From the IMG/VR virus record IMGVR_UViG_3300047586_000081, positions 1 to 64,000 of that record: a stretch of 64,000 bases of DNA; one strand, 5' to 3'. The notes beneath the pieces are model-generated. The model searched no databases and was not told where the DNA came from. It worked only from the letters and a program-made list of their open reading frames with translations. The position numbers and the translations under genes were made by a program. Shown here piece after piece: positions 23,921 to 58,335 of the stretch (within the stretch, counting starts at the first letter, position 1; each line of letters opens with the position of its first letter). This stretch comes from a virus.

Positions 23921-24073
23921 CTACCTGTGTTTCGGAGGACGCTTCGGGATCAGCGTGGTGCCGCAATTGGGGCACGGCACGGTCTTGAGACCCGGCAGCT
24001 TGAGGTAGCCGAAGTACTCCTTGGGCGGGCATTTCGGGCAGACAAGCGGCAGGCCGTACTTAGGCATGGCCAT
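23921..24073 (-). CDS. zinc-ribbon protein
   Basis: A 50-residue protein with two knuckles, C-P-K-C and C-P-N-C-G, 20 residues apart, plus a basic C-terminus. This is a complete zinc ribbon. ATG 24073 (or 24067) overlaps the end of the glycosyltransferase gene. Small ribbons like this bind nucleic acid or act as structural modules. Confidence 0.6.
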   Translation of the reverse strand: MAMPKYGLPLVCPKCPPKEYFGYLKLPGLKTVPCPNCGTTLIPKRPPKHR

Positions 24074-25157
24074 TCTCCACTAGAACGCGCCGCAAGTACT
24101 CGTCGTACTTCCAGCGGATCGTGTCCGTCGAGAAGCGGCCGTATGCACTACCAGCGATCTCGTGCCGGTCCAGTGAGGGGGCGTCCTGTGCCGCGGAGAT
24201 GTACTCCTCGGGTGAGGAGCAGCGCCAACCATCCACGCCCTGGCGCACCGTCTCGGTGAACGCACCCCAGTCCGACGTGATGACGGGTGTACCGGCCATC
24301 ATGCTCTCGGCGTGAACACCGCAGAAGGCTTCGAGGTACATGCTCGGGCAGAACGTCGCGATGGCGCCGCCCATCAACCGAGCGCGTCCGGCTGGCCCTA
24401 CCACACCAACGTGCTCGATGTGATCGCCAGACACCACGAGATCAATGCCGCGGAAGGTGTTGCCCTCCTGGGTACAGCCATTTCCGGCGATGATGAGTTT
24501 CGCCCCGATGGCGCGCGTAGCCTCGACGGCGCGCTCGATGCCCTTACGGCGGATGAAACGGCAGACCATCAGGTAGTAGCCGCCATCGCCAGGCCCAGGC
24601 GGGAAGTCCTCGGCCTCGAACGAGTTGGGGATCACGATGTCCCCGGTGCGCTCGTTATCGGGAATGCCCTGTACTTGCTGCCGCCCGGCAATGAAGTGTC
24701 GCAGGGCGTAGCTCTCGTACACGCGGTACGGCGCCCACACCCCCCAGTAGCCCACGCCGACCTCAACGGGGATCAGCTCGGGTAGGGCCTCGGCTACCGA
24801 CTTCTGGCTCCAGCCCATGGTCAGGCCCAGGATGTCCCCGGGCTCCATGCGCTGGCGAATGGCGTAGATCGCGCGGGCGTTCAGGGCCTGCCAGTACGGC
24901 AACTGGTCGTCCCACTGGTCGAAGGTTTCTTTGGCCCAGTCGCGACCCGCAAACCAGATCGCCTGGTCTTGACGAGTCACGATGGGAATGTGCTCAGTGC
25001 AACGAGCCTCGTTCTCTTCGCCCGCATAGAGCCGCACGTCCCACCCGGCATCGTGCAGCATGTTGGCTTCTTTGCGGGTCTTCTCGGTAAAGGCACACCA
25101 GCTGAATGCCTTTGTGGTTTCCGTGTGCGGAAACCCTAGGAGATGGATCCGGGGCAT
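24060..25157 (-). CDS. glycosyltransferase, GT-B fold (GT4-like)
   Basis: A 365-residue protein from ATG 25157 with a GGGAGAGC site upstream. The C-terminal nucleotide-sugar domain is clear: R-F-I-R-R-K-G-I-E-R-A, K-L-I-I-A-G-N-G, then E-A-F-C-G-V-H-A-E with the E-x7-E motif, then G-T-P-V-I-T-S-D. It retains the usual retaining-GT4 features. It lies directly downstream of the fibre genes, suggesting the virion or its fibres are the target; this is inference. Confidence 0.85.
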   Translation of the reverse strand: MPRIHLLGFPHTETTKAFSWCAFTEKTRKEANMLHDAGWDVRLYAGEENEARCTEHIPIVTRQDQAIWFAGRDWAKETFDQWDDQLPYWQALNARAIYAIRQRMEPGDILGLTMGWSQKSVAEALPELIPVEVGVGYWGVWAPYRVYESYALRHFIAGRQQVQGIPDNERTGDIVIPNSFEAEDFPPGPGDGGYYLMVCRFIRRKGIERAVEATRAIGAKLIIAGNGCTQEGNTFRGIDLVVSGDHIEHVGVVGPAGRARLMGGAIATFCPSMYLEAFCGVHAESMMAGTPVITSDWGAFTETVRQGVDGWRCSSPEEYISAAQDAPSLDRHEIAGSAYGRFSTDTIRWKYDEYLRRVLVENGHA

Positions 25158-25207: not shown

Positions 25208-25876
25208 TCAGATAATCACCACGGCTTGTGACGCAGGAACTGCGGTAATTGCCGCCTCCTTGATGAAGATGTGTCCGCCCGCCGTCTTGGGGGTTCCGGC
25301 GGCATTGGTCCACGCCGCGGACAGCGCTCCGACATCCGCTACATCCGAGAGCGCCAGGTATGAGAGACAGATAGCGATCCAGTTGTTCGGGCCGCCAGCC
25401 GCGAGCCTATTGTAGCCAGCCGGATCTGCCGGTGTCGCCGCGACACCGTCTGTGTCCTCGGAACTCCACGCAAGATCGATCCCATTGCCGCTCGCCCAAG
25501 GGCCAATCGCCGGGATCGGGCACGTCGCGACAGAGGCGCCTTCGACTCCGCACTGGAGCGGGTCGGGAATAGCCTGGACCGCACCAGACACAGCGACGCA
25601 AACCGCCGCCGTGGCTTGGCCGGTAATCGTGATTTCCACGCTGTCCCCCAGCGCACCGGTATCCACTATGCCCCACAGGTAGAGGTACTTGTGATCGTAG
25701 GATGGGCCTACTGTCTGCTCGGCCAGCAAAGCCCAACCATCTGGCGTGGAAGGAGTCGCCGAGCCGTACACTCCGGCGACTAACACGTCACCGGCCACGT
25801 GCCCGATAGGGAGTAGTACCGACAGGGTCGAACCACTCCCACCACTGTAGATTGCTGCGCGCAAGTCGATACTCAT
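25208..25876 (-). CDS. fibre or tail-tip beta-sandwich protein, duplicated domain
   Basis: A 222-residue beta-rich protein. It aligns by eye with residues about 165-375 of the neighbouring fibre (shared G-H-V-x-G-D-V-L-V, S-T-P-x-G-W, I-V-D-T-G-x-L-G, A-I-P, D-P-A-G-Y and A-G-G-H-I/V-F-I). The gene therefore encodes one free copy of the fibre's middle domain. An AGGAGG site precedes ATG 25876. It is probably a virion surface or receptor-binding protein. Confidence 0.7.
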   Translation of the reverse strand: MSIDLRAAIYSGGSGSTLSVLLPIGHVAGDVLVAGVYGSATPSTPDGWALLAEQTVGPSYDHKYLYLWGIVDTGALGDSVEITITGQATAAVCVAVSGAVQAIPDPLQCGVEGASVATCPIPAIGPWASGNGIDLAWSSEDTDGVAATPADPAGYNRLAAGGPNNWIAICLSYLALSDVADVGALSAAWTNAAGTPKTAGGHIFIKEAAITAVPASQAVVII

Positions 25877-25896: not shown

Positions 25897-27912
25897 CTAG
25901 GTGATGCTCGCTACCACAGCGGAGAAGTTTCCGCCATGTGAGTTGATGAAGTGACCCAGGGGTGCGGAGAGCCCCGGAAACCCGAAAGCAACAGCATACC
26001 CGGCGCTGTCACCCCCGGATGGATACGAGTGCGCAAACTGGAGCAGGCCCAGCCCGGCGTACGCATTGAAGCCCGCGCCGTACGTGCTTTCCGCACCGGC
26101 GGCGATCACGAGCGCCGTGCAGACAGATGGCGTGACTACCGGCAGGAAGCTGCCCTGGGCAGCTCCCGTGATGGCGCCTGACTGATCGAGAGTGCCTGTG
26201 AGCCCAGACCACTCACTCGCGTGGAACCCGCAGTATGTCGTGTCGCTGTACGTGACCGTAATGCCGGTATCCGCCGAGCCGGAAACGATACCGACCCAGA
26301 TCTCACAGTGGGGGCTAGAGCTGGCCGTGCTCTCAGCCAGCTTCGACCACGATACGTTCGTCTGTGTGATCGAGGAGATGTTGGTGCCGCCTTCGCTCTC
26401 CGAGCACAAGACGAGGACGTTCCCGTTCGTCGGAGTCGCGCCCAGGGTCGCCGTGGCACTCCCTTGGTCAGCCGCCGTAGAGGTGACTTCTTGCACAGGC
26501 AACCGCGCTCCCGTACTGCCACCCCCGCCCGGGGCGCCGGTTCCACCTGTAGGGCCAGTCGCACCAGTAGGACCACCAGAGGGGCCAGTTCCACCGGTGC
26601 CACCGGTCGCGCCAGCAGTTCCTGTCCCACCTGTTCCGCCAGCTGCGCCTGTACCGCCCGCAGCACCGGTGCCACCAGTGCCACCCGTGCCGCCGGTGCC
26701 ACCAGCAGATGACCAGGCCGGGGAGCCCGAGACAACTTCGAGGACCTGACCCTCGTCTCCAACGGGCAGCCGAGTAGGGGCACCGCTAACGCTACCCGCA
26801 GCCCTGATGAAGACGTGACCACCCGCGGCGTGAGGGCTCCCGGGGTTGGTCCATTCAGAAGTCAGCGCTCCGACCGTGGTTACATTCGAGAGAACCTTGT
26901 AGGAAAGAACAAAGTCGTGCCAGGTGTTTGGGTGACCCTCGATGCCCCTACTGTACCCAGCCGGGTCCGCCACGGTCGGCAAGCTGCCAGTGCTGGTGCT
27001 CTCACCGCAGAACGTCAGATCTACCCCGTTGCTGCCCGCCCAGGTGCCCAGTTCCGGGAGCGGGCACGTCTCCGAGGCGGCGGCCTGCGTCCCATACTGA
27101 GCCGAGCCTGGGATCGCTTGTTCTGCACCAGAAAGGGCGATGCAGATAGCCATCAGCCCACCGGCGGTCGCAGAAACGGTCACACTCGCCCCGAGCGAAC
27201 CGGTGTCCACGATAGCGAACAGGCTCAGGTACCTGTCGGTTGACGGCTGTGGCGAACCCAGCGGAGTCCATCCACTAGGGGTCGAAGGGCTGTTGTCACT
27301 AAACACACCGAGAACCAGCACGTCACCGACTACGTGCCCGGTCGGGAGCGTCACGACCACAGACGTGGTGTACCCATTGCCGTTGTAGGTGGGTGTGTCG
27401 CGCAAGGCTGCGGTTCCGCTACCAATACCGGTACCGCCCACGATCAGATCACCAATCTGCGTCATTGGGTTGGACATGCTGCTGCCATCACCAGAGCCCG
27501 CAGCACCAGTGCCGCCAGTACCGCCCGTGGCGCCCACCGCTCCGGTCCCGCCCGTGCCGCCTGTACCGCCTACGCCGCCGGTGCCGCCCGTATCGCCAGC
27601 CGCTCCTGTGCCACCAGTGCCACCAGTGCCGCCTGTACCGCCCGCGCCAGACCCACCAGAGCCAGCAGCTCCCGTGCCACCCGTTCCGCCAGTACCACCG
27701 GTGCCACCGGTGCCACCGGTGCCGCCCGCCCCAGAACCACCCGTGCCTCCGCCGCCATAGGTATGCAGAGACTCCAAGGCGGCGTGGACAGTGGTCCCAC
27801 TGCCGATGGTGCCCGTGGCGCCCGTAGCGCCGATCTGGCCATCGACCAGGACGTTGGAGTCGAGATCGGTGCCGTGGTGATCGTAGAGGCGGGAGTGGGT
27901 GTTTCGGCTCAT
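25897..27912 (-). CDS. collagen-like Gly-Gly-Thr repeat fibre protein
   Basis: A 671-residue fibre. An N-terminal attachment part (residues 1-50) precedes a first Gly-Gly-Thr/Ala repeat shaft (about 52-145). A beta-sandwich domain duplicated in the next gene follows (165-375), then a second repeat shaft (400-465) and a different C-terminal beta domain (470-671) that probably meets the receptor. The Thr at nearly every third position makes the shaft a plausible O-glycosylation substrate. It overlaps the tail-tip gene by one base. Confidence 0.75.
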   Translation of the reverse strand: MSRNTHSRLYDHHGTDLDSNVLVDGQIGATGATGTIGSGTTVHAALESLHTYGGGGTGGSGAGGTGGTGGTGGTGGTGGTGAAGSGGSGAGGTGGTGGTGGTGAAGDTGGTGGVGGTGGTGGTGAVGATGGTGGTGAAGSGDGSSMSNPMTQIGDLIVGGTGIGSGTAALRDTPTYNGNGYTTSVVVTLPTGHVVGDVLVLGVFSDNSPSTPSGWTPLGSPQPSTDRYLSLFAIVDTGSLGASVTVSATAGGLMAICIALSGAEQAIPGSAQYGTQAAASETCPLPELGTWAGSNGVDLTFCGESTSTGSLPTVADPAGYSRGIEGHPNTWHDFVLSYKVLSNVTTVGALTSEWTNPGSPHAAGGHVFIRAAGSVSGAPTRLPVGDEGQVLEVVSGSPAWSSAGGTGGTGGTGGTGAAGGTGAAGGTGGTGTAGATGGTGGTGPSGGPTGATGPTGGTGAPGGGGSTGARLPVQEVTSTAADQGSATATLGATPTNGNVLVLCSESEGGTNISSITQTNVSWSKLAESTASSSPHCEIWVGIVSGSADTGITVTYSDTTYCGFHASEWSGLTGTLDQSGAITGAAQGSFLPVVTPSVCTALVIAAGAESTYGAGFNAYAGLGLLQFAHSYPSGGDSAGYAVAFGFPGLSAPLGHFINSHGGNFSAVVASIT
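26520..26710 (-). repeat. Gly-Gly-Thr coding repeat, distal shaft
   Basis: A degenerate 9-base repeat (GCCACCGGT-like on the + strand) encodes Gly-Gly-Thr/Ala. It resembles the repeats at 27480-27760 and 48085-48255, so these can recombine or change length. Confidence 0.8.
27480..27760 (-). repeat. Gly-Gly-Thr coding repeat, proximal shaft
   Basis: About 280 bases of 9-base GC-rich units encode the first collagen-like shaft. Antisense frames rich in Val and Pro are by-products of this composition. Confidence 0.8.
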
Positions 27913-42720: not shown

Positions 42721-44049
42721 CTATGACCGGCGAATACGGACCTTGGTGGAGAAGGTTGGAGCCTTCACCGCCAGACCCCACATGCCGAAGATGATGTACA
42801 GGTGGGTGAGCTGTCCGCTGATCCCGATGGGGATGTCGAGGACGGTCGGCCCATCCGTGCCCAGGTACGGCATGGAGATGGTCTCTTCGTCGAGCAGGTA
42901 GAGGTCCGCACAGGTCGTCGCAGCCGAGAAGGCTGAAGACGGGCTGTAGGCCCCGATGGAGTCGCCCGGAACGGTGGCGAAGGGCAGAGGACCGAACACG
43001 GTGTTCACCGCATTGGTCAGCACGCCGACGCCGACGTTGACGAGGTTCTCGGGAGCCATGTAGCGGACGTTCTTGTCCTGCTGGATGTCGAACGCATGCT
43101 TGTCGAGCGGGTTGCCCCAAATGATGGAAATCGTTCCACCGAGGTTCTCCACAATCGCGCAAGCCATGTCGATCTTGGCGCGCATGTCATCCGGCGAACC
43201 CGCCAGGACATCCGCGTTCTCAGCACCAGGGCTGGAGCGCAGGATGTACCGGAGGCCGTCGAAGCCATTCACATCGTACACACCGGACTCATTGGACGTG
43301 GTGCCCGCGGAGTCGGTGCTTGTGCCCGAGAAGATCTGCTTCTGCATGGTGTGCGCAATGGCGCGCAGACCACCGGTCAGCTCAAGCTGCTCGGGATTGT
43401 ACCCGGCACCACCCTGAAGGACAGCGAACTGGCTCTTCAGCGAGATACCACGCCTGGTGGCGACCACCGCGACGTTGGTCGTCTGGCGGAGGTACACGTT
43501 CTGATCGTCGGTGACGGTGCCCAACTCAGCCATAAACTGAGCAGCGCCGAACGCCGTGATCTGGTTGTAGGCATGCACGAGGCCGTTCGCCGGTTCCTTG
43601 GGGAACCGCTCCCACGCCGGGAACATGCGAACGTACAGCTCGTACAGCACCGGCTCAAGGTCCTGACGGATCAGGGCGGTGGCGCCAGTGGTGTCCAGGG
43701 CCTTGCGAAGCGTCGGGTTGCCCGACATCTCGATGGCGTGCTGGACAGCGTAGCCGCCTGCGTTGGCCCAGGCGCTGAACGGGATGCCGCCATCCTTCTC
43801 CGCCTGCATGGCGAAGAGGGCGAGCAGCTCCGGGAGCGTCTTCTTGCGAAGCTCCTGGCGCACTGCCAGAAGATCCTGGCGGCTCATGAAGCCGCGTTGG
43901 GTCAACGCGCTTCCGCCATCGACGATGCCGACGGGCGGGGTGGCGGGAGTGGTGTTGGGGGCCTCATTGCGGGCCGCCAACTGAGCCTGGATCTTCTCCA
44001 GGGTTTCATTTGCGGACTTGAGCAGGTTGGCCTGCTCTTCGGGATCCAT
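42721..44049 (-). CDS. major capsid protein, HK97-like
   Basis: A 442-residue protein. The first 70 residues are helical and charged, like a delta/scaffold segment removed by the protease. The body has an E-loop-like and spine-helix layout and ends in strands (L-P-F-A-T-V-P, then I-F-G-M-W-G-L-A-V-K). It follows the prohead protease gene, as in HK97-type phages. ATG 44049 has a GGAGAG site. Confidence 0.85.
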   Translation of the reverse strand: MDPEEQANLLKSANETLEKIQAQLAARNEAPNTTPATPPVGIVDGGSALTQRGFMSRQDLLAVRQELRKKTLPELLALFAMQAEKDGGIPFSAWANAGGYAVQHAIEMSGNPTLRKALDTTGATALIRQDLEPVLYELYVRMFPAWERFPKEPANGLVHAYNQITAFGAAQFMAELGTVTDDQNVYLRQTTNVAVVATRRGISLKSQFAVLQGGAGYNPEQLELTGGLRAIAHTMQKQIFSGTSTDSAGTTSNESGVYDVNGFDGLRYILRSSPGAENADVLAGSPDDMRAKIDMACAIVENLGGTISIIWGNPLDKHAFDIQQDKNVRYMAPENLVNVGVGVLTNAVNTVFGPLPFATVPGDSIGAYSPSSAFSAATTCADLYLLDEETISMPYLGTDGPTVLDIPIGISGQLTHLYIIFGMWGLAVKAPTFSTKVRIRRS

Positions 44050-44051
44050 GT

Positions 44052-45842
44052 CTAGCTCTCCTTCTGGAGCAATTCGATGAACTCGTCGCTGTAGATCTCC
44101 CGAAGGTTCTCGAACTTCGAGACGGCCTCGGTAAACCTGGTGCGGCGACCCATCGGGGTCGATGCGATCTTGTCGATCACCTCAGAGGTGCGGCTGAGCA
44201 AGGTAGCTGATACCTCGCGGGTTCGGGCCTCGGATGCCTCGGCATTGATGCGGAGTACGCGTTCTGCTACGAGATCTTTCCGGGCGGTGACCAACTCGTT
44301 GGTGGTTGCCGTCAGGGTCGCCAAAAGATCCGTGATCGTTTTGGCAACTTCAGGAAGTGCCTCTCGCGCCAGTTCGCGCGTGACCGTGTCGCCGAGGGCC
44401 GCGTCGTCACCCTCTGCCGTCTCGTCGGCAAGAGCCCCATCGGTCTCAGGATTGCTCGCGGGAGCGCCCTGTGGAGGAGCGTCGTCGGACGGGCTGTCCG
44501 TATCGATCTGGATAATTGTAACCTTCGCGTCCTCAAGATCAAGAGCCTTCTCGCTCTTGTCGTCGTCGTCGCCATCCTTGCGCTCGTCGCTGGTGTTACC
44601 AGCTCCGTCGTCGGAGTCGCGATCTGACTCATGAGGATGCTCTCCACCGTCGTCGCCATGTGAATGGTCGTGCTCGGGGGAGTTCATGGCTTCGCTATGA
44701 GGATGATCCTCTTCGCCGCCATGGCCATGATCGTGGCTGTGCTGATGAGCGTGGTCGTGAGTGTGGGTTGTCCCATCCTCGTGACTGTGCTCGTGCTCGT
44801 GCTCGTGTGCATGGTCATGCTCATGACTGAAGTCAGGGCTGGCCGCGTCGGTCAGGAAGTGATGCACATCGAAGTCATCCGTGAGGGCTTCGAGGAAGTC
44901 GGCTTCGGCGAGGGCGTCCGTCTTTTCGCGGTCGCCTATCCCGGCCGACTTAGCGTGGGCTTCGAGGTGGGCCTTGCCGCACTGCTCGTTACCCGGATCG
45001 CCAATTCGGGCCAAGGCATTCTTTTCCAGGTAGCTCTTGAGCAGAGCCGTGTCGAGTGCGCCACTCATCGTGTGATGTGGGTAGTGACGCAAGCTGCGCG
45101 GCGTGGTCTTGCCAGACGAGTCCTTCTTGCCACCCGGGCTGATGCAGGCGAACGCGGAGTCGGGAAGCTCGTTGTGACTCTTCGCCACCATGCCGTCCGT
45201 GACCATCGCAACGCCGTCGAGCTGACCTTCGATGCGATACATGCCAGTCTCGGCATCGAGCGTGATCGTCGGCGCTGAGGTTTCCAGCTTGACTGCATCC
45301 TTCTGGATCCCCTTCAACGCCTTCACGGCGTAGTCGATCCAGGAACGCGGGTTCGCCGGAATGCCAACGATGCTGGCCTCCAGCAGGTTGACGTGGGAGA
45401 TCAGGTACGTGCCGTCCTTGCGGCGGGTAGCCCCGCCTTCGGGGATCATGGCCCCGATGGACAGCCCGACCTTCGCCTTGCCCTTGCTGTTGTAGATGCC
45501 CTCCCAGGACGCAACGGCACGCGGGTTGACGCCGTTGATGAGGACATCGAAGTCCAGGTCCCAGATCGGAGACCCGTCCTCCTTGGTGCCCCGCTTGGCT
45601 ACGGCGGCGCGCTCGACCCAGCCGCCCATGTCCTCGGGGACTTCGTAGGAATGGTTGAGGAAGATGGTCAGACCCGCGTTCGCGGTGGCCATCATATCGT
45701 CGAGAGCGCTTTGCTCCATGTCGTCGCCGTGCAGGTCCTTGACCGTGGAACTAGCAACGCCATGCAGACGCATCGCTCCCTCAGCGTCCTTGGACGCCTT
45801 GAGGAGACCTGAGAAGATGTTGAACTTCACATCAGGCTGCAT
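44052..45842 (-). CDS. prohead protease with His-rich insert and scaffold-like tail
   Basis: A 596-residue protein. Residues 1-180 are an S78-type prohead protease: F-L-N-H64-S, G-L-S128-I-G and L-L-E155-A-S-I-V-G-I-P. Next is a DUF6582-like block (L-P-D-S-A-F-A, G-G-K-K-D, S-L-R-H-Y-P). Residues about 335-405 hold some 23 His in alternating H-x-H pattern with Asp and Glu. The last 130 residues are helical like a scaffold. ATG 45842 overlaps the glycosyltransferase gene by 11 bases. Confidence 0.85.
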   Translation of the reverse strand: MQPDVKFNIFSGLLKASKDAEGAMRLHGVASSTVKDLHGDDMEQSALDDMMATANAGLTIFLNHSYEVPEDMGGWVERAAVAKRGTKEDGSPIWDLDFDVLINGVNPRAVASWEGIYNSKGKAKVGLSIGAMIPEGGATRRKDGTYLISHVNLLEASIVGIPANPRSWIDYAVKALKGIQKDAVKLETSAPTITLDAETGMYRIEGQLDGVAMVTDGMVAKSHNELPDSAFACISPGGKKDSSGKTTPRSLRHYPHHTMSGALDTALLKSYLEKNALARIGDPGNEQCGKAHLEAHAKSAGIGDREKTDALAEADFLEALTDDFDVHHFLTDAASPDFSHEHDHAHEHEHEHSHEDGTTHTHDHAHQHSHDHGHGGEEDHPHSEAMNSPEHDHSHGDDGGEHPHESDRDSDDGAGNTSDERKDGDDDDKSEKALDLEDAKVTIIQIDTDSPSDDAPPQGAPASNPETDGALADETAEGDDAALGDTVTRELAREALPEVAKTITDLLATLTATTNELVTARKDLVAERVLRINAEASEARTREVSATLLSRTSEVIDKIASTPMGRRTRFTEAVSKFENLREIYSDEFIELLQKES

Positions 45843-47085
45843 TTGGCTTGACCTCCGTTGATGTATCAGTTCCCGCCGCGGCCTTGCGGAGGAACTCATC
45901 GAACCGGGTCGCTGCCTCGTCCCAATTGAACGCGGCGACTACATGTTCCCGGCCAGCCTGCCCGAGTGATCGCCGTGCCCCTGCGGATTTGTAGAGGCGC
46001 TCGATGGCCTGGGTGAAGGCTGAGATGTCGGCGAGCTTCAGTTCCTCGCCTGAGGGGACCGTGACCTCGCGGTCGAGCGGTTCGACAAGCACACCGCCTG
46101 GCCCTACCGTCTCCGGTATGGCCGAGCAGTTCTGTGCGATGACAGGCACGCCGCATGCCAGTGACTCTGCCAGGGTCAGGCCGAAGCCCTCACCACCAGA
46201 GGTGGAGACGAAGATGTCTGCGGCGTTGTAGAGGGCCGCCAGATCCGACTCTGGCCAGCCTTGGAAGCTGTTCATGTTGGCTGGCAGGAAGAACCGCTTG
46301 TGCAGGTCTTCACGGCGGGACAACATCGATGTGATCCAGACCCCCGTCTGAACCCGGTCTTCGCACTGGAAGTGCACCTGGATGTCGGCGTGCCGCTCCA
46401 TCGCGGGCCAAAGCGCATGCACCGTAGCCCCGAAGTCTTTGCGGGCCGAGTTCTTGTCCACCCGGAGTACCAAAAACCCATCAGGGTCGTAACCAAACGC
46501 CTTCTTGCATTCGCGTTTGGTGCTGACCTTGTTTCCGTTCGAGAGCGTGATGGGTTCCTTTGGGCTCACCGGGTGATATGTGATCGTGTCTACCCCGTGA
46601 GGCACGAGGTGTGAGTCCTTCAGCTGACCCTGTCCAAACTTCGACATCGCCACCACGAGCGATGCCTCGGCCAGCCCTTCGCTCCATATGGGCGGTAGGT
46701 TATATCCGTCGATGGGGACGTATGTGACGATGGGGCGGTACTGGAGCAGGATCTTCTTTGCGTCGTATGGGTTCTCGTGCAGCATCGAGAGGATGACGTT
46801 TGCGTCCTGAAGGATGAACACCACATCAGGTTCGACCGTTCCGAGCATCTCGATGTATCTGCTACGCCCATAGCTGTCGTTACCGACCAGCATGTTGGGC
46901 CGGTACAGTTTGAGTGGCGTTGGCTTGCTTGGATCCCTCAGCGAGGGCCAGAAGTCGCCGCGGTAGTTGACCCCCAGGACCGAGATGTCCCAGCCGAAGT
47001 CCTCTACCAGTCGTTCGCCGATGCTGTGCGTGACCCTACCAAACCCGGTGTGGCACCCAGCATCTGAGAGAAACAGAGCCTTCAC
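45832..47085 (-). CDS. glycosyltransferase, GT-B fold (GT4-like)
   Basis: A 417-residue protein with a GTG start behind an AAAGGA site. It opens with a Rossmann strand and a G-F-G-R loop. The C-terminal half shows V-L-R-V-D-K-N-S-A-R-K-D, then S-G-G-E-G-F-G-L-T-L-A-E (E-x7-E) and G-V-P-V-I-A-Q-N, the GT4 donor-binding site. Its place between structural genes suggests head or fibre decoration; that is inference. Confidence 0.88.
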   Translation of the reverse strand: MKALFLSDAGCHTGFGRVTHSIGERLVEDFGWDISVLGVNYRGDFWPSLRDPSKPTPLKLYRPNMLVGNDSYGRSRYIEMLGTVEPDVVFILQDANVILSMLHENPYDAKKILLQYRPIVTYVPIDGYNLPPIWSEGLAEASLVVAMSKFGQGQLKDSHLVPHGVDTITYHPVSPKEPITLSNGNKVSTKRECKKAFGYDPDGFLVLRVDKNSARKDFGATVHALWPAMERHADIQVHFQCEDRVQTGVWITSMLSRREDLHKRFFLPANMNSFQGWPESDLAALYNAADIFVSTSGGEGFGLTLAESLACGVPVIAQNCSAIPETVGPGGVLVEPLDREVTVPSGEELKLADISAFTQAIERLYKSAGARRSLGQAGREHVVAAFNWDEAATRFDEFLRKAAAGTDTSTEVKPNAA

Positions 47086-47700: not shown

Positions 47701-48372
47701 TTATGTGCGTTGAACCTTTAGACTGACCAGGAGGCGGTTGCCACCTGAGCAGCTATCGACGTTGTAGCGCAGGATATCCCCGGCGGCGATGTCGGTTGTC
47801 CAGCTCGCGAGAGTTGCGTCCGTCTCCAGGCCGCCGCCCGAGAGCGTCGGTGGAGTTGCGTCGCAGATCGAGTCCGAGTCGGTCGCGGGCCAATCGCCCG
47901 CAGCGACCTTCCAGATGTCTACGATTGCCGTGGCAACCCCGACATCAGAGCATTCCCGCAACGAAGCGGATTGGATGGCCGCGTCGAAGTCCACCACGAC
48001 ATCACCCTTGATGCCAGGTGTGATCGTCGCTCCACCGCCGTCGATGAGGAAGTTGATCGTCTCGGTTGCCAGGCCAGTCGCGCCAGTGCCACCGGTTCCG
48101 CCAATGCCACCGGTTCCACCGGTACCACCCGGATCACCGGTTCCGCCAGTTCCACCGGTTCCACCGGCCGCGCCAGTACCGCCAGTACCGCCAGTACCGC
48201 CAGCCGAGCCAGCCGCACCGGTTCCACCAGTCCCGCCAGTGCCACCGGCGAAACCTGAACCGCCCAGCTCAACCTCGACGCCGACCCCAGTGGCCTCATC
48301 GATGATCTGAGAGAGCGCGTGTTGATGGTTGCCGAATGGTACCTTTTCAGACCAATCGACTGGCGGGCTCAT
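47701..48372 (-). CDS. collagen-like fibre, possible head fibre
   Basis: A 223-residue protein: an N-terminal 40 residues for attachment (W-S-E-K-V-P-F-G-N), a Gly-Gly-Thr/Ala shaft (about 41-100) and a C-terminal beta domain (110-223) with W-K-V-A, S-I-C-D-A and I-L-R-Y-N-V-D-S motifs recalled from phage fibre tips. It lies between portal and protease genes, not in the tail module, which suggests a head-associated fibre. Confidence 0.65.
   Translation of the reverse strand: MSPPVDWSEKVPFGNHQHALSQIIDEATGVGVEVELGGSGFAGGTGGTGGTGAAGSAGGTGGTGGTGAAGGTGGTGGTGDPGGTGGTGGIGGTGGTGATGLATETINFLIDGGGATITPGIKGDVVVDFDAAIQSASLRECSDVGVATAIVDIWKVAAGDWPATDSDSICDATPPTLSGGGLETDATLASWTTDIAAGDILRYNVDSCSGGNRLLVSLKVQRT
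48085..48255 (-). repeat. Gly-Gly-Thr coding repeat
   Basis: A 9-base repeat like that of the tail fibre gene 20 kb away. Shared repeats allow recombination or exchange of fibre tips. Confidence 0.8.
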
Positions 48373-50258: not shown

Positions 50259-51728
50259 CTACCTTCGCTTCACGGAGCCGTAAAAGAACATGTCACCGCC
50301 CAGGTCCATCGAGTAGCCAAGGGCGTCAACCATGTCGTCGTGGCCACGCGGGAAGCTCAGCAATTCGTGTACGAACTCTGAGTCCACGAGCGAGCGGTGG
50401 AAAAAGACCTTGTGGGCCTCGATCTTGGCCGCCACCGCGCGTGCGCGCGTGACCTTGTCTACGTCAGCGCGCTTCCCTTGAACCGGGATCCTGGGATAGT
50501 CGCGCATGATCTCTTGTATCAGGGTGGACTGGAACTGCTGGTTCTCGATGATGACGGCACCCATATGCGGATGTGCCATCCAGCCGTCCGCGACGAACTC
50601 GGCATGATGTGACTCGCGCTTATCGCGGACCACTGAGAGCACGAAGTAGTTGCCCTCCTGGTCCTCGGCGGTGGTAGCACGAGCCGTGTAGTCGGCGCGC
50701 TCTTTCTCCGAGGAGGCCAGGTCCACGCCCATGCGGACGGTGAAGATGCTATCGGGCTCCAGTATGTCGAAGTACCTGAAGTACTCGTTGCGGAAGACAT
50801 TGCCGCGCATGAGGCCCGTCACGTCGTTTTGGTATGCGCAGTTGAAGAGATCGGCGCCCAGCTCTTCCTGGCGCTTGAGCAGCGTAGCGACCGGCCATTC
50901 CTCGGGCCAGTAGGACGAAAGCTCGCCGGTCTCTCGGTCCTCAAGCAGAGCGCTGCGCACCAGGAACTTCCATCCCAGGCCACCGTCCGTGACCGGAGCC
51001 ATCAGCTTCGCGTAGAGATCCTCGTCGGCCCAGCGGGTGCCCAGGATCAGGACCGCGCCACCCGGCACCAAGCAGGGCAGCAGCGTCTTGAGGAACCACG
51101 TCTCGACCTTCTCGCGCTGTTCGAGCGTCTGCGTGTTCTCCTCATCGAGGATGTCGTCGCAGACGATCAGATCGAACCGCTTGCTGATGATTGCGCCGCC
51201 CACCCCGACGGCGTACATCGACACATCCTTGGAGGTGCGCCAGCGCGACTGGGCGTGGATCCACTCCGCGTCGGTCCACTTGTCGCCCCGCTGGAACCCA
51301 AACAGCTCGATATGCCGCGGGTTGGAGGAGATCGTGGTGTGGATGGCGCGAGAGAAGTCGAGCGCCTGCTTGGCGGTGTTGGATGCTAGGCAGACCCGAA
51401 GATCTGGATTGCGTGCGATGACGTACGAAAGGAAGCCCGTGTTGCCCCAGGTGGTCTTAGCGGCACCTCGCGGCTCAATCGCTCCGCCCTTGTCGTGATC
51501 CCGCACGAGCTTGAGGAGATGGTCCACCATCTCACGATGATGAGGCGCAGGGGCATATCCGTGAACGTACTCGACATAGGAGAAGACATCATCCTTCGCC
51601 AATGCCTTGAGCGAGAGGAGGTAAACCTGATCCCAGTCTTCGGGGCTCAGTTCCTCGGCGTTGTCGCGCAAGCTCTGCAAGAGCGACTGCCACATCTGGG
51701 GGGAGTTCAGCTGAGAAGTTGAGTCCAA
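50259..51728 (-). CDS. terL: terminase large subunit
   Basis: A 489-residue packaging motor. The ATPase has P-R-G-A-A-K-T-T at residues 86-93 (Walker A-like) and F-D-L-I-V-C-D-D at 185-192 (Walker B). A C-terminal nuclease domain begins near G-V-D-L-A-S (about 335) and has further acidic residues. The start used is TTG 51728 with a GGAGAA site; a later ATG near 51695 lacks one. It overlaps the small terminase frame by 140 bases. Confidence 0.92.
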   Translation of the reverse strand: MDSTSQLNSPQMWQSLLQSLRDNAEELSPEDWDQVYLLSLKALAKDDVFSYVEYVHGYAPAPHHREMVDHLLKLVRDHDKGGAIEPRGAAKTTWGNTGFLSYVIARNPDLRVCLASNTAKQALDFSRAIHTTISSNPRHIELFGFQRGDKWTDAEWIHAQSRWRTSKDVSMYAVGVGGAIISKRFDLIVCDDILDEENTQTLEQREKVETWFLKTLLPCLVPGGAVLILGTRWADEDLYAKLMAPVTDGGLGWKFLVRSALLEDRETGELSSYWPEEWPVATLLKRQEELGADLFNCAYQNDVTGLMRGNVFRNEYFRYFDILEPDSIFTVRMGVDLASSEKERADYTARATTAEDQEGNYFVLSVVRDKRESHHAEFVADGWMAHPHMGAVIIENQQFQSTLIQEIMRDYPRIPVQGKRADVDKVTRARAVAAKIEAHKVFFHRSLVDSEFVHELLSFPRGHDDMVDALGYSMDLGGDMFFYGSVKRR

Positions 51729-52136: not shown

Positions 52137-52787
52137 CTACTCGGCCAGGAAGTCCACGGCAATCGCGGCCAACGCCTCATCGTCATTGTCAAGCGCGAGC
52201 TGCTCCTTGGCTGTAGCCAGGGCGCGGTCCAAGACTGCTGCGGTATCGTCGCTGACGCGAAAGAGCCGCTCCACCCAATGTCGTGTCTCTCTGGACACGG
52301 GTTCGGCTGGCTGTTGCGCCTTCTTCTCGAAAGCGGACCAGTCGAAGTTCTTGTTCATGTCCGCCAGTCGGGCAAACACGCCGTCGTCGTAGGGGATCGT
52401 CTTGCGCAGCTTGTCAATGCTTGTCGAATTGACAAGTAGCTTGAGGATCTCCTGAACGCGGGCCGGGTCGTGGGTGCCATGGATCTCGCGCAGGACCAGC
52501 GTGAGCTGCATGGCCATGTTGTCGTCGATCTCGCCCAGGTTCCAACACGGAACCTCTTCCATGCCCAGCTCGTTGGCCACCAGCCAGCGGTGCTCGCCGT
52601 CGATAATCTCATACACGCCCGGGCGTTCCGGGTGGGTGCGCACGATGATCTGGTCCACGAACCCGAACTCTTCAATGGACGCGCGCTCACGTGCGAGCAT
52701 GTCGGCATCCATGACGTTTGGGTTCCACGGGTTTGGGTAGAGGCGGCTGACCGGCAGGTTCATGGCCTCGCCGTTGATACGGTTCAT
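52137..52787 (-). CDS. ParB-like nuclease-domain protein
   Basis: A 216-residue protein. It has the ParB/Srx fold: L-Y-P-N-P-W-N-P, then a helix, I-I-V-R and the catalytic-type motif G-E-H-R (64-67). The remaining 140 residues are helical, possibly DNA binding. In phages such proteins occur near terminase genes and may nick or mark DNA. It is coupled to the QueD-like gene. Confidence 0.8.
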   Translation of the reverse strand: MNRINGEAMNLPVSRLYPNPWNPNVMDADMLARERASIEEFGFVDQIIVRTHPERPGVYEIIDGEHRWLVANELGMEEVPCWNLGEIDDNMAMQLTLVLREIHGTHDPARVQEILKLLVNSTSIDKLRKTIPYDDGVFARLADMNKNFDWSAFEKKAQQPAEPVSRETRHWVERLFRVSDDTAAVLDRALATAKEQLALDNDDEALAAIAVDFLAE

Positions 52788-53113
52788 CGCTTCGTCCGGG
52801 TGACGCCCCCGGCCAGACCGCGACCGTCCTCGACCTCTATCATCTCCAGGTTCGGGAATGCCTCGACAAGGCGCTCCGCGAGCCAGCGGGCAATGCCGGA
52901 GAGGGTGGGCTCGCCGCCTATCATCATCAGGTTGAGATCGCGGTCGTTCAGCTCATAGAGGATCGTGCTCAGTAGGTCTTGCAGCTGGGGTGCGTCCGCA
53001 CGCACGAAGACGCGCACGGTAAAGGTATGACCGTGCAGGCTGGCGCAGCGCGCCGGGTGGGCTACCTGGTGGCTGGCGTCAAACTTCGCCGTTACCTCGG
53101 TGAAAGACTCCAT
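52784..53113 (-). CDS. QueD-like (6-pyruvoyl-tetrahydropterin synthase family) protein
   Basis: A 109-residue protein. F-D-A-S-H15-Q, C23, and L-H27-G-H29 give three zinc ligands and the catalytic Cys of the QueD/PTPS family. The usual L-D-H and P-T-x-E motifs are altered (N-D-R-D-L-N, P-T-L-S-G), so activity is uncertain. QueD makes a precursor of 7-deazaguanine bases. No FolE, QueE, QueC or DpdA was recognised in this window. ATG 53113 with a GGAGAA site is preferred over longer readings. Confidence 0.75.
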   Translation of the reverse strand: MESFTEVTAKFDASHQVAHPARCASLHGHTFTVRVFVRADAPQLQDLLSTILYELNDRDLNLMMIGGEPTLSGIARWLAERLVEAFPNLEMIEVEDGRGLAGGVTRTKR

Positions 53114-53858: not shown

Positions 53859-54578
53859 TCACCTGTCCCAGGCCAACTCCTTCAGGCGCTTGAAGGGAGG
53901 GTCGATGGTAATGGAAGGGTCTAGCCCAGAGGCGAAGGGCGTCTTGAAGCCAGGACCCTCCATCTTCGCTTCCCAGGGCTCGCAGCCCCACTTCTGGCGG
54001 AAGAGGATGCGGTTCTGCGGGTAGGTGCGGTTGTTGGCCGCCCTCTGTGTGGGCTGCGCGATGGTCTGGCTGGACAAGTGGCTGGTGGAAGAAGGAGTAT
54101 CGACCCACTCCACGCCGAGCAGTATCGCACGCCAGGACCAGTCCGAGTCCTCGCAGTAGGCGGGGTAGAAGTTCTCGTCGAACCAACCGACCCGCTCCAC
54201 GGCAGCTGCGTTGATGGCGAACGCGGAGAACCCGCAACCAGCCAAGGTTCTCATGACCGGGCCTGTAGCAGCGCTCATCTCTGAGTCCATCCGCGCCAAG
54301 TCGCCGCGACCGAAGACGATGTCATCGTTCACGAACATCCACCACGGTGCCTTGATGTTGGCCCGAATGACGAGGTTCAGGGCCGCGCCGAAGCCCATGT
54401 TGTAGCCAGGATCGCAGACGTGCATTCCCTCGGCCCAGGACAGTTCGCCGTCGGCCTTGTCATACAGGCCGCCGTTGTCCACGACGAAGTAGCGCTGGAC
54501 CTCGTGGTCAACGCTGGCCTCCATGTTGGCCAGGAGATCATACCGGTTGAGCACCGGGCATCCGAGGACAGGGATCAT
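53859..54578 (-). CDS. GT2-family glycosyltransferase
   Basis: A 239-residue GT-A protein: I-P-V-L-G-C-P-V-L-N-R at the start, Y-N-M-G-F-G-A-A-L-N in the donor region, the metal motif N-D-D-I-V-F and a later Y-C-E-D-S-D-W-S-W-R acceptor-site motif. The layout is that of rhamnosyl- or hexosyl-transferases of GT2. It ends the glycan-type cluster. Confidence 0.85.
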   Translation of the reverse strand: MIPVLGCPVLNRYDLLANMEASVDHEVQRYFVVDNGGLYDKADGELSWAEGMHVCDPGYNMGFGAALNLVIRANIKAPWWMFVNDDIVFGRGDLARMDSEMSAATGPVMRTLAGCGFSAFAINAAAVERVGWFDENFYPAYCEDSDWSWRAILLGVEWVDTPSSTSHLSSQTIAQPTQRAANNRTYPQNRILFRQKWGCEPWEAKMEGPGFKTPFASGLDPSITIDPPFKRLKELAWDR

Positions 54579-55183
54579 GCTTTCACCGCAATGGCGAGTC
54601 CGTTGATGATCGTTAGAGACTCAACCTTGAAATCGTCATTCGTCGGCGATGCGGGCGAATTGTGGACGGACTTGCGAGCTATATCGTCGGCAGCGACCGA
54701 GTCTACGAGGTCCTTGATGAACCCAACCATGCCCGCGTAGTGGTGGGACTCGAACTGTGCGCCGTCTGGCCAGTCGCCCCAATAGCCAGTGCCCCAGTCC
54801 TCGATGGCATAGATGCCGCCCGTGCGCATTCTTGGGAAGAGATAGAGGAACGAGGCACGAGCGCTGCGCGCGATGTGGGCACAGTCGTCAATCACAATGT
54901 CGAACGTGTCCCCGCAGCGCGCCAGAGCGGCAGGGTCCTCCTGGTCGCCCTCCACGGCGCGGATCCGAGGATGGCCAATAGCTGGAACCTGGCGATCCAG
55001 GCCAACGATCTGGCCCTTGGGAAAGTACTCGGCCCAGTAGCGCAGAGAGCCGCCCCCGGCGACACCAAGCTCAAGAAGTCGCACCGGCTGGGCGCGCAAC
55101 CCCGCGAAAAAGCGCTCGTAGAGCCGCAGGTAGTGGAGACCCTTGTCACTGTCCGGGATGCCTAGAGTGATGTCTGAGATCAT
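54575..55183 (-). CDS. SAM-dependent methyltransferase, class I
   Basis: A 202-residue protein. L-L-E-L-G-V-A-G-G-G-S (36-46) binds SAM, D63 follows in G-L-D-R and V-I-D-D (97-100) is the later acidic motif. It resembles sugar O-methyltransferases of the MycE/Cephalosporin-hydroxylase type. In this cluster a sugar substrate is likely. The start overlaps the upstream gene by four bases. Confidence 0.8.
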   Translation of the reverse strand: MISDITLGIPDSDKGLHYLRLYERFFAGLRAQPVRLLELGVAGGGSLRYWAEYFPKGQIVGLDRQVPAIGHPRIRAVEGDQEDPAALARCGDTFDIVIDDCAHIARSARASFLYLFPRMRTGGIYAIEDWGTGYWGDWPDGAQFESHHYAGMVGFIKDLVDSVAADDIARKSVHNSPASPTNDDFKVESLTIINGLAIAVKA

Positions 55184-55821
55184 GGTGGTGGCCAATTCCT
55201 GTGGTAGTGAAGGACCAGATGGGGTAGGAAGTAGAACCGCACCGCGCCGCTTTCCCACATGCGCATCCATAGGTCGGCGTCGCCGTAGCGTCTGCGATTG
55301 GTGTAGCAATCGAGATCGTAGCGGAACGGCAAAGAGGTACGGTACAGGTTGGCGCCATTGCTGAGCTGCCCGCCCCCGGGCGGCCAGGCCCCGTAGCGTT
55401 GGCCGGTGCTGACGCCCGCCTTGTTGTAGACCTCGCTAATGCCGTAAACGTGGTCAGCATGCTCGCGCTCGGCCGCGGCTAGCAAGACCTCATTGTGGTC
55501 GGGCGTCCAGGCATCATCGTCGGCCAACACCGCGATCCAGTCGCCCAGCGCGTGGTCTATCCCATAGTTGAGACTGGCCAGCCCAATGACGGCCCAGCGG
55601 GCGTCGAAGTCCTCGGGGTAACTCTGGTGGGGCAGATTGGTAAACCTGAAGCGCGGATCCTCTAACGCAAGTTTCTCCATCAGAGCAACTGTCTCGTCGT
55701 CGGTCCCATCGCCAACGACGTGGCACTCCCAGTCGGTATGGGTCTGGGCCAGCACAGACGGGATGGCACGATGCATGAGGGTATCCGGGCGGTTGTAGGT
55801 GGGAATGATGACGGAGATCAT
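55180..55821 (-). CDS. GT2-family glycosyltransferase
   Basis: A 213-residue GT-A protein: I-S-V-I-I-P-T-Y-N-R-P-D at the N-terminus, G-D-G-T-D-D-E-T, and the metal-binding L-A-D-D-D-A-W. This is the canonical GT2 set. The last part (Y-G-D-A-D-L-W-M-R-M) is an acceptor-side motif. ATG 55821 overlaps the previous gene. Confidence 0.9.
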   Translation of the reverse strand: MISVIIPTYNRPDTLMHRAIPSVLAQTHTDWECHVVGDGTDDETVALMEKLALEDPRFRFTNLPHQSYPEDFDARWAVIGLASLNYGIDHALGDWIAVLADDDAWTPDHNEVLLAAAEREHADHVYGISEVYNKAGVSTGQRYGAWPPGGGQLSNGANLYRTSLPFRYDLDCYTNRRRYGDADLWMRMWESGAVRFYFLPHLVLHYHRNWPPP

Positions 55822-56735
55822 CGCATCGCCATCGCCTTCTGCCAGATGAGGTCGAGCTGCCTGGCGACTTTGCTCTCGTCGTGCCAACGCTCGACGTGAG
55901 CCGTCCCAGCAGCGGCGAAGAGCCTGCGGACCTCGGGGTCGCGCATGTGTTCGAGCTGCTCGCCGAGGGTATGCTCATTCGCTAGCAGGAACGGTAGATC
56001 GCCAAACAGGTTGAGCATCAGGTCGATGGTCCGCTGGTCGGATGCGCCAGACACCACCGGGATACCCATCGCCATCGCCTCGATGCTTGAGAGGGCGTAA
56101 CCGATGCGGAGCTGGTCATAGAATATGTCGGCCTGCGCCTTGCGCGCCAGGCACTCATCCCAGGTCTCCCCTTCAATCACATCGGTTGTGAAGTCGGACG
56201 GCACAACACTCAGGAAAAGGTCAGTGTCCTTCCGTACGCGATCTGTTGGAGAGTGGGCAATCCGCAGACCTTCGTGCAGGACGAAGTTGTCGTGCCGGAT
56301 TTGCCGCATCCGGTCCAGGTTGCATGGGTTGGGCAGCCATTCGAGGCTCGGACCGTTCAGCAGCAGATCAGGCGTTGAGACAATCCCATAGGCCCTATAT
56401 TCCGCAACCTCGCGGATCAACTCCTGGGTACGAAACTCGTCGAACTCCGCCCCGTGGTGGTGCATAACCAGCGGCTTGTCGCGCCAACCCGCGAAAGGAG
56501 TGACCGCGTTCCAGCGTTCCACGACATGGATGACATCGGCCTCGCGGAACAGATCCGCGTATCCGGCAGGCATCGGTGCCCCGAGTGCCCAATACAGATC
56601 AGTTGGATAGGCCATGTAGCGGTGGAGACGGTGAATGACGCGCACCGACCAATCGGTGTACTTCTCCATGGCGTACTTGAGGGCGATCCCAATCCCCGCG
56701 GTATCCATGTTGGACGAGAGAATGAGCGCCTTCAC
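55818..56735 (-). CDS. GT-B glycosyltransferase-like protein
   Basis: A 305-residue protein from GTG 56735. N-terminal K-A-L-I-L-S-S-N, a V-M-H-H-H-G-A-E-F segment and C-terminal S-S-I-E-A-M-A-M-G-I-P-V-V-S-G resemble GT4 enzymes, with a reduced E-x7-E region. It is shorter than usual GT4 enzymes. Part of the coupled cluster. Confidence 0.75.
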   Translation of the reverse strand: MKALILSSNMDTAGIGIALKYAMEKYTDWSVRVIHRLHRYMAYPTDLYWALGAPMPAGYADLFREADVIHVVERWNAVTPFAGWRDKPLVMHHHGAEFDEFRTQELIREVAEYRAYGIVSTPDLLLNGPSLEWLPNPCNLDRMRQIRHDNFVLHEGLRIAHSPTDRVRKDTDLFLSVVPSDFTTDVIEGETWDECLARKAQADIFYDQLRIGYALSSIEAMAMGIPVVSGASDQRTIDLMLNLFGDLPFLLANEHTLGEQLEHMRDPEVRRLFAAAGTAHVERWHDESKVARQLDLIWQKAMAMR

Positions 56736-57505
56736 GCGGGCGGCTCCGTCTTGTAATCGAGCTGCGGTTCGGGCAGCCCCTCCTGGTTATCTTCCTGACC
56801 AGTCAGGCGCACGACCAGCGCGCGGTCATTCTGATAGGCGCGGGATGCCAGCATGTATTCCTCGGTGCGGAACATGCAACGGTGCTCGATCCAGTATTCG
56901 GCCGTTAGCCGATAGGCCGGAAGATGCGGGTGAGCGTCGTCGCCGTGCATTAGCCAGACTCGCTCCCCGTTCTTCAAGGCACTAATGAAGAAGTGGCGCC
57001 TCTCGGCCTGGATGCCGGGCAAAGCCCGATACAGGATCGAGTGGTACTGCACGCCACGCGCTCCTTGCTCGTGCCACGGCCCGGGCGTCATCGTGCCCAT
57101 CGGGTTGCTCGGAGTCACGAATGGGATCTCGTACACGTCGGCTTGGCTCTGCTCAAGTTCCTTCCGCACTGCCTCCCACTTGGCGTGCAGCACATAGTCT
57201 GCATCCATGACAGCGATCCAGTCAGAGCCCTGGGCTGCGCGCTGATAGAGGAAGGTCCGCTTCTCAACCTGGCCAAGCCAGCCCCGGACTGGGATGTAGA
57301 TGTCGCAGTCCAGGCCGACGCGCTGGGCAGCCTCCCGAATGGCATCTTCCTCGGCCTGGGAGCTTCTGATGGTTCCACCCGGATAGCGGCCCCAGGACCC
57401 GTCTACAGCCACGATCCGGTCGGCCACCTTGGCAGTACTGCGAACACATGCCTCCAGAAGTTCTGGGTCTTCGTTCGACCACATCAGCGCAGCGGTCACG
57501 ATCAT
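56732..57505 (-). CDS. GT2-like glycosyltransferase
   Basis: A 257-residue protein: T-A-A-L-M-W-S-N-E, then V-D-G-S-W-G, then a metal motif I-A-V-M-D-A-D-Y. The C-terminal half has Trp- and His-rich strands. It fits GT2-type domains acting as glycosyltransferases. Both ends are coupled by ATGA overlaps. Confidence 0.7.
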   Translation of the reverse strand: MIVTAALMWSNEDPELLEACVRSTAKVADRIVAVDGSWGRYPGGTIRSSQAEEDAIREAAQRVGLDCDIYIPVRGWLGQVEKRTFLYQRAAQGSDWIAVMDADYVLHAKWEAVRKELEQSQADVYEIPFVTPSNPMGTMTPGPWHEQGARGVQYHSILYRALPGIQAERRHFFISALKNGERVWLMHGDDAHPHLPAYRLTAEYWIEHRCMFRTEEYMLASRAYQNDRALVVRLTGQEDNQEGLPEPQLDYKTEPPA

Positions 57506-58335
57506 GGTCGGCACATCTCCAGCCACCAGCCACGGTCCCACGGCTTGGTGGGATCCGGCAGATAGCCAATACGATTGAGGACGAAAGAGCGGACGGGTTC
57601 TCGCTGCGCCCAGGCCACGAGCGGGGCCGGGAAGCCCATCTTGTCCTTGCGGTCGATGATCGCGTCAGGCACGATCCCGCGGACGGCTTCGCGGAGGTAT
57701 GTCTTGCCGACGCGCCGCTCCACCGGCAGCGCCAGGGCGAAGTCCACCACCCGCTGATCGGTGAACGGAGCGCGAGCCTCGATCCCAAACGCGCCGGTCA
57801 TCTGGTCGTCCACCGCCAGAAGCTCCGGCAGGAGGGCGTAGTCGTAGTCGAGCGCCTCCTTCAGGGTCGTGGGGTAGCCCTCGGGGAGCTGGTAGTTCTC
57901 GTAGCCCTGGGGAGGCTCCATGCCAGCGACCATCATCTGGCGGGCGTATCCGCCGAACAGCTCGTCACTGCCCTCGCCCGACAGGGCGATGTCGATGTCG
58001 CAACTGGCGAGGTAGCTGGCCACCATGAACTGGCCGAATGTGCCCATGCCCATGATCGGAGGCTTCTGCGCGGTCTTCATTTCGTCGAAGTGTTCCACGA
58101 AATCCTCCGGCCTGATGAGGATCTCGTAATGGCGAGTGTGGGCTGCGCGAATAGCCCAGTGGCGCTCGTCGAAGCCGATCTCATCGTAGTAGCCGGTGAA
58201 GGTCGGCAAGTGCGCCGGAGCGAGACAGGCAACAGTCGAGGAGTCGATCCCGCCCGAGAGGACGATGCCGACATTGCCGCCATCGAGTCGGTCTGCGATA
58301 GCCGCTCGAAGCAAGGAGATAAGGGGCTGGTCCAT
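57502..58335 (-). CDS. asparagine-synthase-like PP-loop enzyme lacking glutaminase domain
   Basis: A 277-residue protein: the ATP PP-loop S-G-G-I-D-S-S (27-33), then L-S-G-E-G-S-D-E-L-F-G-G-Y (118-130) typical of AsnB synthetase domains, and E-A-R-A-P-F-T-D-Q-R-V-V-D. The N-terminal glutaminase half is absent. It may use ammonia or another partner, perhaps to amidate a sugar acid or peptide. It starts the glycan cluster; GGAGGT precedes ATG 58335. Confidence 0.82.
   Translation of the reverse strand: MDQPLISLLRAAIADRLDGGNVGIVLSGGIDSSTVACLAPAHLPTFTGYYDEIGFDERHWAIRAAHTRHYEILIRPEDFVEHFDEMKTAQKPPIMGMGTFGQFMVASYLASCDIDIALSGEGSDELFGGYARQMMVAGMEPPQGYENYQLPEGYPTTLKEALDYDYALLPELLAVDDQMTGAFGIEARAPFTDQRVVDFALALPVERRVGKTYLREAVRGIVPDAIIDRKDKMGFPAPLVAWAQREPVRSFVLNRIGYLPDPTKPWDRGWWLEMCRP

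Follow-up and report, generated by a model that had tools for sequence, protein, structure and literature searches.

What do six tightly packed genes for glycan-building enzymes act on in an uncultured phage, and why is one of them related to asparagine synthetase (AsnB)? The stretch that raises this question, referred to below as the window, comprises bases 1–64,000 of the 67,013-bp IMG/VR virus record IMGVR_UViG_3300047586_000081, which is classed as linear. The six genes encode, in order, an AsnB-like PP-loop enzyme, a GT2-like glycosyltransferase (GT2a), a GT-B-fold glycosyltransferase, a GT2 enzyme (GT2b), a methyltransferase (MT) and a further GT2-like enzyme (GT2c), and two GT4-type glycosyltransferase genes, GT4a and GT4b, lie elsewhere in the window (Table 1). 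The original prediction had named these eight genes, all of which we found in place with agreeing families or fold, and had given them one joint task, the decoration of threonine-rich fibres. Comparison with relatives indicates that this merged two things that travel separately, the six genes on the one hand and the pairing of GT4b with a fibre on the other. We favour, at roughly even probability, a reading with two separable virion-glycosylation systems, in which the operon and GT4a would act on a protein of the head or of another part of the virion and GT4b on the stalk of a fibre.

The six genes are one translationally coupled unit, as had been proposed, because all five junctions are 4-bp start/stop overlaps and one strong ribosome-binding site, a GGAGG Shine-Dalgarno sequence, precedes the first gene. 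Several glycosyltransferases and a methyltransferase are thereby joined in a single phage operon, the composition looked for in a virion-glycosylation cluster. The model of the GT-B protein (predicted local distance difference test (pLDDT) score 84) has PimA as its closest PDB fold (E = 1.5e-11). Searches of cultured phages gave no match, either by tblastn with this protein or, at near-identity on the DNA level, with the portal-to-AsnB region.

The new element is the AsnB-like enzyme, which is phage-only and glutaminase-less, whereas phage virion glycosylation by methyltransferases and glycosyltransferases is already known. At 277 aa, the protein consists of the synthetase domain alone: it begins at the PP-loop domain and lacks the N-terminal (cysteine, class II) glutaminase domain that asparagine synthetase B possesses. 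Both its score and its PP-loop motifs place it in the asparagine synthase superfamily (PF00733), and its 136.5 bits fall short of the equivalog cut-off of 267.1 for glutamine-dependent asparagine synthetase B (TIGR01536). SGGxDSS, GEGxDELFGGY and Lys232 are invariant across nine aligned phage sequences, and the K-M-G-F pattern suggests that Lys232 is the usual catalytic lysine. Its predicted fold is matched by asparagine synthetase of human and E. coli and, less closely, by beta-lactam synthetase; the PP-loop synthetase fold and motifs are common to AsnB, beta-lactam synthetase, carbapenam synthetase, TsnB9 and this enzyme.

Nine IMG/VR contigs, which a two-sequence alignment recovered where a single-sequence query had returned one, and a 6.9-kb contig (L209) binned with an actinobacterial genome carry relatives at 57–73% identity. 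L209 carries homologues of an epimerase, the AsnB-like enzyme, GT2s, portal, protease and capsid, and the last three mark it as phage DNA. When 84,980 bacterial and archaeal species were scanned twice, it was the sole relative obtained. Cellular homologues, sought in 40 genomes related to the bin of L209, matched only in separate pieces at 28–45% identity and within far longer frames, mostly of 500–1400 aa. With all relatives on phage contigs and only piecewise, distant cellular matches, the AsnB-like enzymes form, as judged from sequence, a phage clade of their own. There are further phage proteins with an asparagine synthase annotation, but these are distant from this clade, and we found no description in the literature of an AsnB-like enzyme together with phage glycosylation.

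The gene neighbours point to a role. Beside the AsnB-like gene, each of the ten other contigs has a sugar-nucleotide epimerase of the short-chain dehydrogenase/reductase family, and in seven of the eight loci readable downstream, the window counted, the AsnB-like gene is followed by GT2a. Next in three of the AsnB-like/GT2a loci come genes for an SGNH protein and for a protein with a left-handed beta-helix, the latter closest to NeuD-type sugar acetyltransferases. Because of this company, we take the AsnB-like enzyme to act in nucleotide-sugar or glycan chemistry, with amidation of a sugar carboxylate, or a similar amide formation, as the favoured reading. No uronic-acid-forming enzyme was seen adjoining the gene in the loci compared, so a uronic-acid donor would come from the host. 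A single-sequence IMG/VR scan with GT2a found none, yet homologues later turned up beside AsnB-like genes; since pattern scans of this kind miss relatives, absence in them is weak evidence.

For the other enzymes, we retrieved 80 IMG/VR loci with the terminase large subunit as query and, as the gene caller used for relatives was simple, relied only on genes supported by homology. At least one of these glycosyltransferase families follows the portal gene in 20 of the 29 terminase relatives that extend at least 3 kb past it. The order GT4a-protease-major capsid protein (MCP) is kept in eight contigs besides the window, and in L090 it is extended to GT2b-MT-GT2c-GT4a-protease-MCP, with the first three proteins at 54–61% identity to those of the window (MT, 61%). 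GT2b homologues lie in the head modules of many relatives, and GT-B homologues follow the portal genes of L024, L026 and L087. Cultured phages show comparable arrangements: phiPsal1 has MCP-GT-MT-GT2-neck, where a GT2c homologue lies between capsid and neck genes, and S-CBS4 has portal-GT4-GT2c-MT-MCP. The genes are in this way tied to virion genes in L090, the eight GT4a-protease-MCP contigs, L209, phiPsal1 and S-CBS4. The coupled glycan-building cluster originally proposed is thus borne out, its relatives lie in phage head modules, and the AsnB-like gene keeps constant company with glycosyltransferases and epimerases. Since the relatives sit among head genes and such genes are reported to glycosylate virion proteins in mycobacteriophages, we infer from position and analogy that the operon acts on the virion.

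Two side observations concern the same region. In one relative (L089:10001-11575), a single protein combines a GT-B glycosyltransferase with a methyltransferase-like domain at its C terminus and so links both activities. A conserved protein of ~160 aa (L087:6794-7279 and equivalents) follows the portal in 26 of 29 relatives, before the glycosyltransferase island, and is a candidate glycan acceptor.

Glycosyltransferases of aquatic phages are usually read as acting on the host surface (PMC7029224, PMC10202952), and the cluster might likewise modify wall glycan or peptidoglycan to block superinfection or alter lysis, in the manner of Gtr systems or of an LtsA-type AsnB. GT2b has weak GtrB-like PHROG matches. 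In addition, the cellular relatives of AsnB include wall-modifying enzymes, among them the LtsA-type AsnB that amidates peptidoglycan in actinobacteria. However, Gtr-type O-antigen conversion pairs a membrane GtrB with the flippase GtrA, whereas by hydropathy all eight enzymes (the six operon proteins, GT4a and GT4b) are free of transmembrane helices, and the families recognised in the window include neither a flippase nor a polymerase or lipid-carrier enzyme. The relatives, moreover, have portal, protease and capsid genes around them. We therefore consider action on the host surface unlikely.

GT4b is a fibre partner that lies consistently downstream of collagen-like genes, and its assignment is better supported than that of the operon. 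Like GT4a, it scores above the cut-off for Glycos_transf_1, and the glutamates of its E-x7-E motif (E276 and E284) are invariant in the alignment. The 80 best IMG/VR relatives of GT4b were reduced to 34 non-redundant ones by removing near-duplicates, and a collagen-like neighbour was defined as a Gly-X-Y run of 15 or more triplets no farther than 3 kb away. Such a run lay upstream on the same strand in 16 of the 29 relatives with enough upstream sequence and downstream in 2/26; none lay nearby on the opposite strand, and none occurred in 1.56 Mb of control phage DNA. In the cultured Synechococcus phage ACG-2014f, a GT4b homologue comes shortly after a collagen triple-helix gene.

Other enzymes are sometimes found at these loci. 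A GT25 gene stands between the collagen-like gene and GT4b in 4 of the 34 (L112, L119, L135 and L151), ~600 bases before GT4b; GT25 is the family of animal collagen galactosyltransferases. In ACG-2014f, a 2-oxoglutarate (2OG)-Fe(II) oxygenase (L108:8070-8663) directly follows GT4b, near the collagen-like gene and tail fibres, and could hydroxylate the collagen-like protein.

In the window, Pfam Collagen (PF01391) has no match despite Gly-X-Y runs of up to 22 triplets; as this model is blind to Gly-Gly-Thr runs, we counted the pattern directly. The tail-fibre-like protein encoded before GT4b has about 50 Gly-X-Y triplets, and a head-structural-like protein has 22, with threonine third in 14. 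The longest runs, 17 and 22 triplets, respectively, lie far above the maxima of 9 and 8 reached in 1000 shuffles. Threonine had been said to occupy nearly every third residue of the fibres, and this holds inside the Gly-X-Y stretches only; overall it makes up 13.9% of the tail-fibre-like and 12.6% of the head-structural-like protein, so the wording was overstated.

That all eight enzymes jointly decorate such fibres, as first suggested, has in its favour that they share one genome, that GT4b adjoins a fibre gene and that the head-structural-like protein, with its Gly-Gly-Thr stalk, lies three genes from GT4a. Nevertheless, relatives of the six genes occur in phages without Gly-X-Y fibres, an outcome that the original prediction had itself named as speaking against it. 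The direct count found no Gly-X-Y run in the first 104 loci, the window and L089 excepted, and none in the other AsnB-positive contigs or in near-whole relatives with GT4a, GT2b, GT2c or GT-B homologues. The near-whole relatives compared have neither GT4b nor Gly-X-Y runs, whereas the window and L089 carry both. Because the loci of their relatives are without Gly-X-Y fibres, the link of the six genes to threonine-rich fibres is unsupported and joint decoration is rather improbable; for GT4b, the proposed fibre link stands.

Under the two-system reading, the operon and GT4a would assemble a short glycan in the cytosol, transferring the sugars directly from their nucleotide donors, and attach it to a virion protein of the head or elsewhere. 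Sugars would be added one by one by the soluble GT2 and GT-B enzymes, and the methyltransferase would cap the glycan or methylate one of its sugars. The AsnB-like enzyme would spend ATP on activating a carboxylate, most likely that of a uronic-acid-type sugar, which would then form an amide with ammonia or another amine; because it has no glutaminase domain, it would have to draw on free ammonia, on a partner protein or on some other amine. GT4b would transfer a sugar to the Gly-X-Y stalk of the fibre encoded just before it, most likely on threonine. In a bolder form, which we regard as possible but doubtful, both systems would be of undescribed kinds: a sugar-amide module confined to phages (epimerase, glutaminase-less AsnB-like ligase and GT2a) making uronamide-type or otherwise amide-bearing glycans on heads, and a widespread GT4 collagen-glycosylation cassette, sometimes with GT25 or a hydroxylase.

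Several observations weigh against the two-system reading. The AsnB-like model is of only middling confidence (pLDDT 66). The window is without the epimerase found beside the AsnB-like gene everywhere else, whether lost or never present, so the sugar may differ there. Its six genes are placed ahead of the terminase genes, on their upstream side, and not between portal and capsid, and only GT4a and GT4b lie inside its virion module, so that the head-module argument comes from relatives. As for GT4b, the control DNA was mostly from other, higher-GC phages and so matches the GT4b loci in neither lineage nor base composition; part of the association with collagen-like genes may be due to lineage. 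Threonine occupies the Y position in 42–75% of triplets near GT4b, and threonine there is usual for prokaryotic collagen-like proteins (48% in Gram-positives and 32% in all bacteria; PMC8968730), so threonine richness is itself no pointer to glycosylation. We dropped it as evidence, being close to the Gram-positive norm.

That the enzymes serve to hypermodify the bases of phage DNA with sugars, as phage glycosyltransferases do elsewhere and as a nearby QueD-like gene (52784-53113) might hint, is very improbable, since Pfam found no base-creating enzyme (dioxygenase, hydroxymethylase, C5-methyltransferase or tRNA-guanine transglycosylase/DpdA-like) among ~50 further open reading frames of the window, and since the QueD-like gene sits beside a ParB-like gene in many terminase relatives, whose covered stretch often has none of these glycosyltransferases. 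A defence-system reading was also dropped, its sole signal being a weak methyltransferase match.

The closest described parallels are in mycobacteriophages. In Che8, Corndog and Myrna (Freeman 2023, as cited in PMC11600133 and PMC12363180), methyltransferase and glycosyltransferase genes are reported to glycosylate capsid and tail-tube proteins. According to the same articles, these actinobacterial phages resemble the window in having several glycosyltransferases, with three in tandem after an O-methyltransferase in cluster O. Their glycosylation sequences, however, are not close to those of the window: neither Corndog nor Che8 is among the matches listed in cultured-phage searches with AsnB, GT-B, GT2a, GT2c, MT, GT4a and GT4b. 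We found no report of an AsnB-like enzyme or nucleotide-sugar epimerase with these mycobacteriophage glycosylation genes in the literature. In Thibault, of cluster J (Omegavirus), gp12-gp19 comprise a methyltransferase and four glycosyltransferases between the MCP and head-to-tail adaptor genes, in the order MCP-x-kinase-MT-GT-GT-GT, and gp19 is a GT2a homologue. Thibault differs in having a kinase-like gene and no AsnB-like gene, and we found no literature report of glycosylation of its virion. The cluster had been thought unlike that of any described phage; this fails for its methyltransferase and glycosyltransferases, which have such precedents, and holds, on the literature searched, for the AsnB-like part. 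The kinase-like gene of this capsid-adjacent cluster (gp12; L083:4509-5003) could encode a sugar kinase.

GT4b has parallels outside phages, in that glycosyltransferases also stand beside Gly-X-Y proteins in BclA of Bacillus, mimivirus and animal GT25 collagen modification, and the occurrence of GT25 and the 2OG-Fe(II) oxygenase beside GT4b in some phages is likewise reminiscent of collagen modification systems. In contrast to these, the window's fibre is of the Gly-Gly-Thr type and GT4b is GT4-type rather than GT25.

Glycosyltransferases in phage genomes are commonly filed as host-surface or DNA modifiers. Should the present enzymes have the virion as their target, phages of a large uncultured lineage would wear a glycan that is methylated and probably amidated; we found no literature report of such chemistry on phage virions. 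The adjacency of GT4b to collagen-like genes would provide a simple rule for which phage fibres are likely glycosylated and by which enzyme. Both ideas are testable in cultured homologues, in Synechococcus phage ACG-2014f for GT4b and in cluster J mycobacteriophages for GT2a.

Table 1. Features of the window discussed in the text, with the evidence for each
Feature	Coordinates	Strand	Evidence
AsnB-like PP-loop enzyme, operon gene 1	57502..58335	-	PF00733 8.1e-53, 180.7 bits against a cut-off of 21
GT2a, GT2-like glycosyltransferase	56732..57505	-	PHROG 7009 glycosyltransferase, 8.7e-24; no Pfam match
GT-B-fold glycosyltransferase, GTG start	55818..56735	-	Predicted model; no Pfam match
GT2b, GT2 glycosyltransferase	55180..55821	-	PF00535 1.1e-25
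MT, S-adenosylmethionine-dependent methyltransferase	54575..55183	-	PHROG 21658 methyltransferase, 2.2e-23
GT2c, GT2-like glycosyltransferase, final operon gene	53859..54578	-	PHROG 29879 glycosyltransferase, 2.9e-29; no Pfam match
GT4a glycosyltransferase, directly before capsid protease and MCP	45832..47085	-	PF00534 (Glycos_transf_1) 5.9e-16
GT4b glycosyltransferase, partner of collagen-like fibres	24060..25157	-	PF00534 (Glycos_transf_1) 5.7e-15
Tail-fibre-like protein, Gly-X-Y (mainly Gly-Gly-Thr) runs at 26503-26703 and 27490-27840	25897..27912	-	Weak PHROG tail-fibre matches, mostly over repeats
Knob-like protein between fibre and GT4b, resembling a fibre domain by eye	25208..25876	-	Translation
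Head-structural-like protein, 22-triplet Gly-Gly-Thr stalk (48067-48264) and C-terminal domain	47701..48372	-	PHROG 10330, 6.1e-15
Terminase large subunit, query for relatives	50259..51728	-	Cultured terminase matches
Capsid maturation protease-like protein	44052..45842	-	Homologues between GT4a and MCP in relatives; annotation from position
Major capsid protein (MCP)	42721..44049	-	PHROG 752 major head protein, 3.3e-11; homologues

The structural module of the window is on the minus strand. Within it, the head-structural-like protein, whose PHROG family is annotated as a virion structural protein of head and packaging, is encoded between portal and GT4a and is possibly a head fibre.

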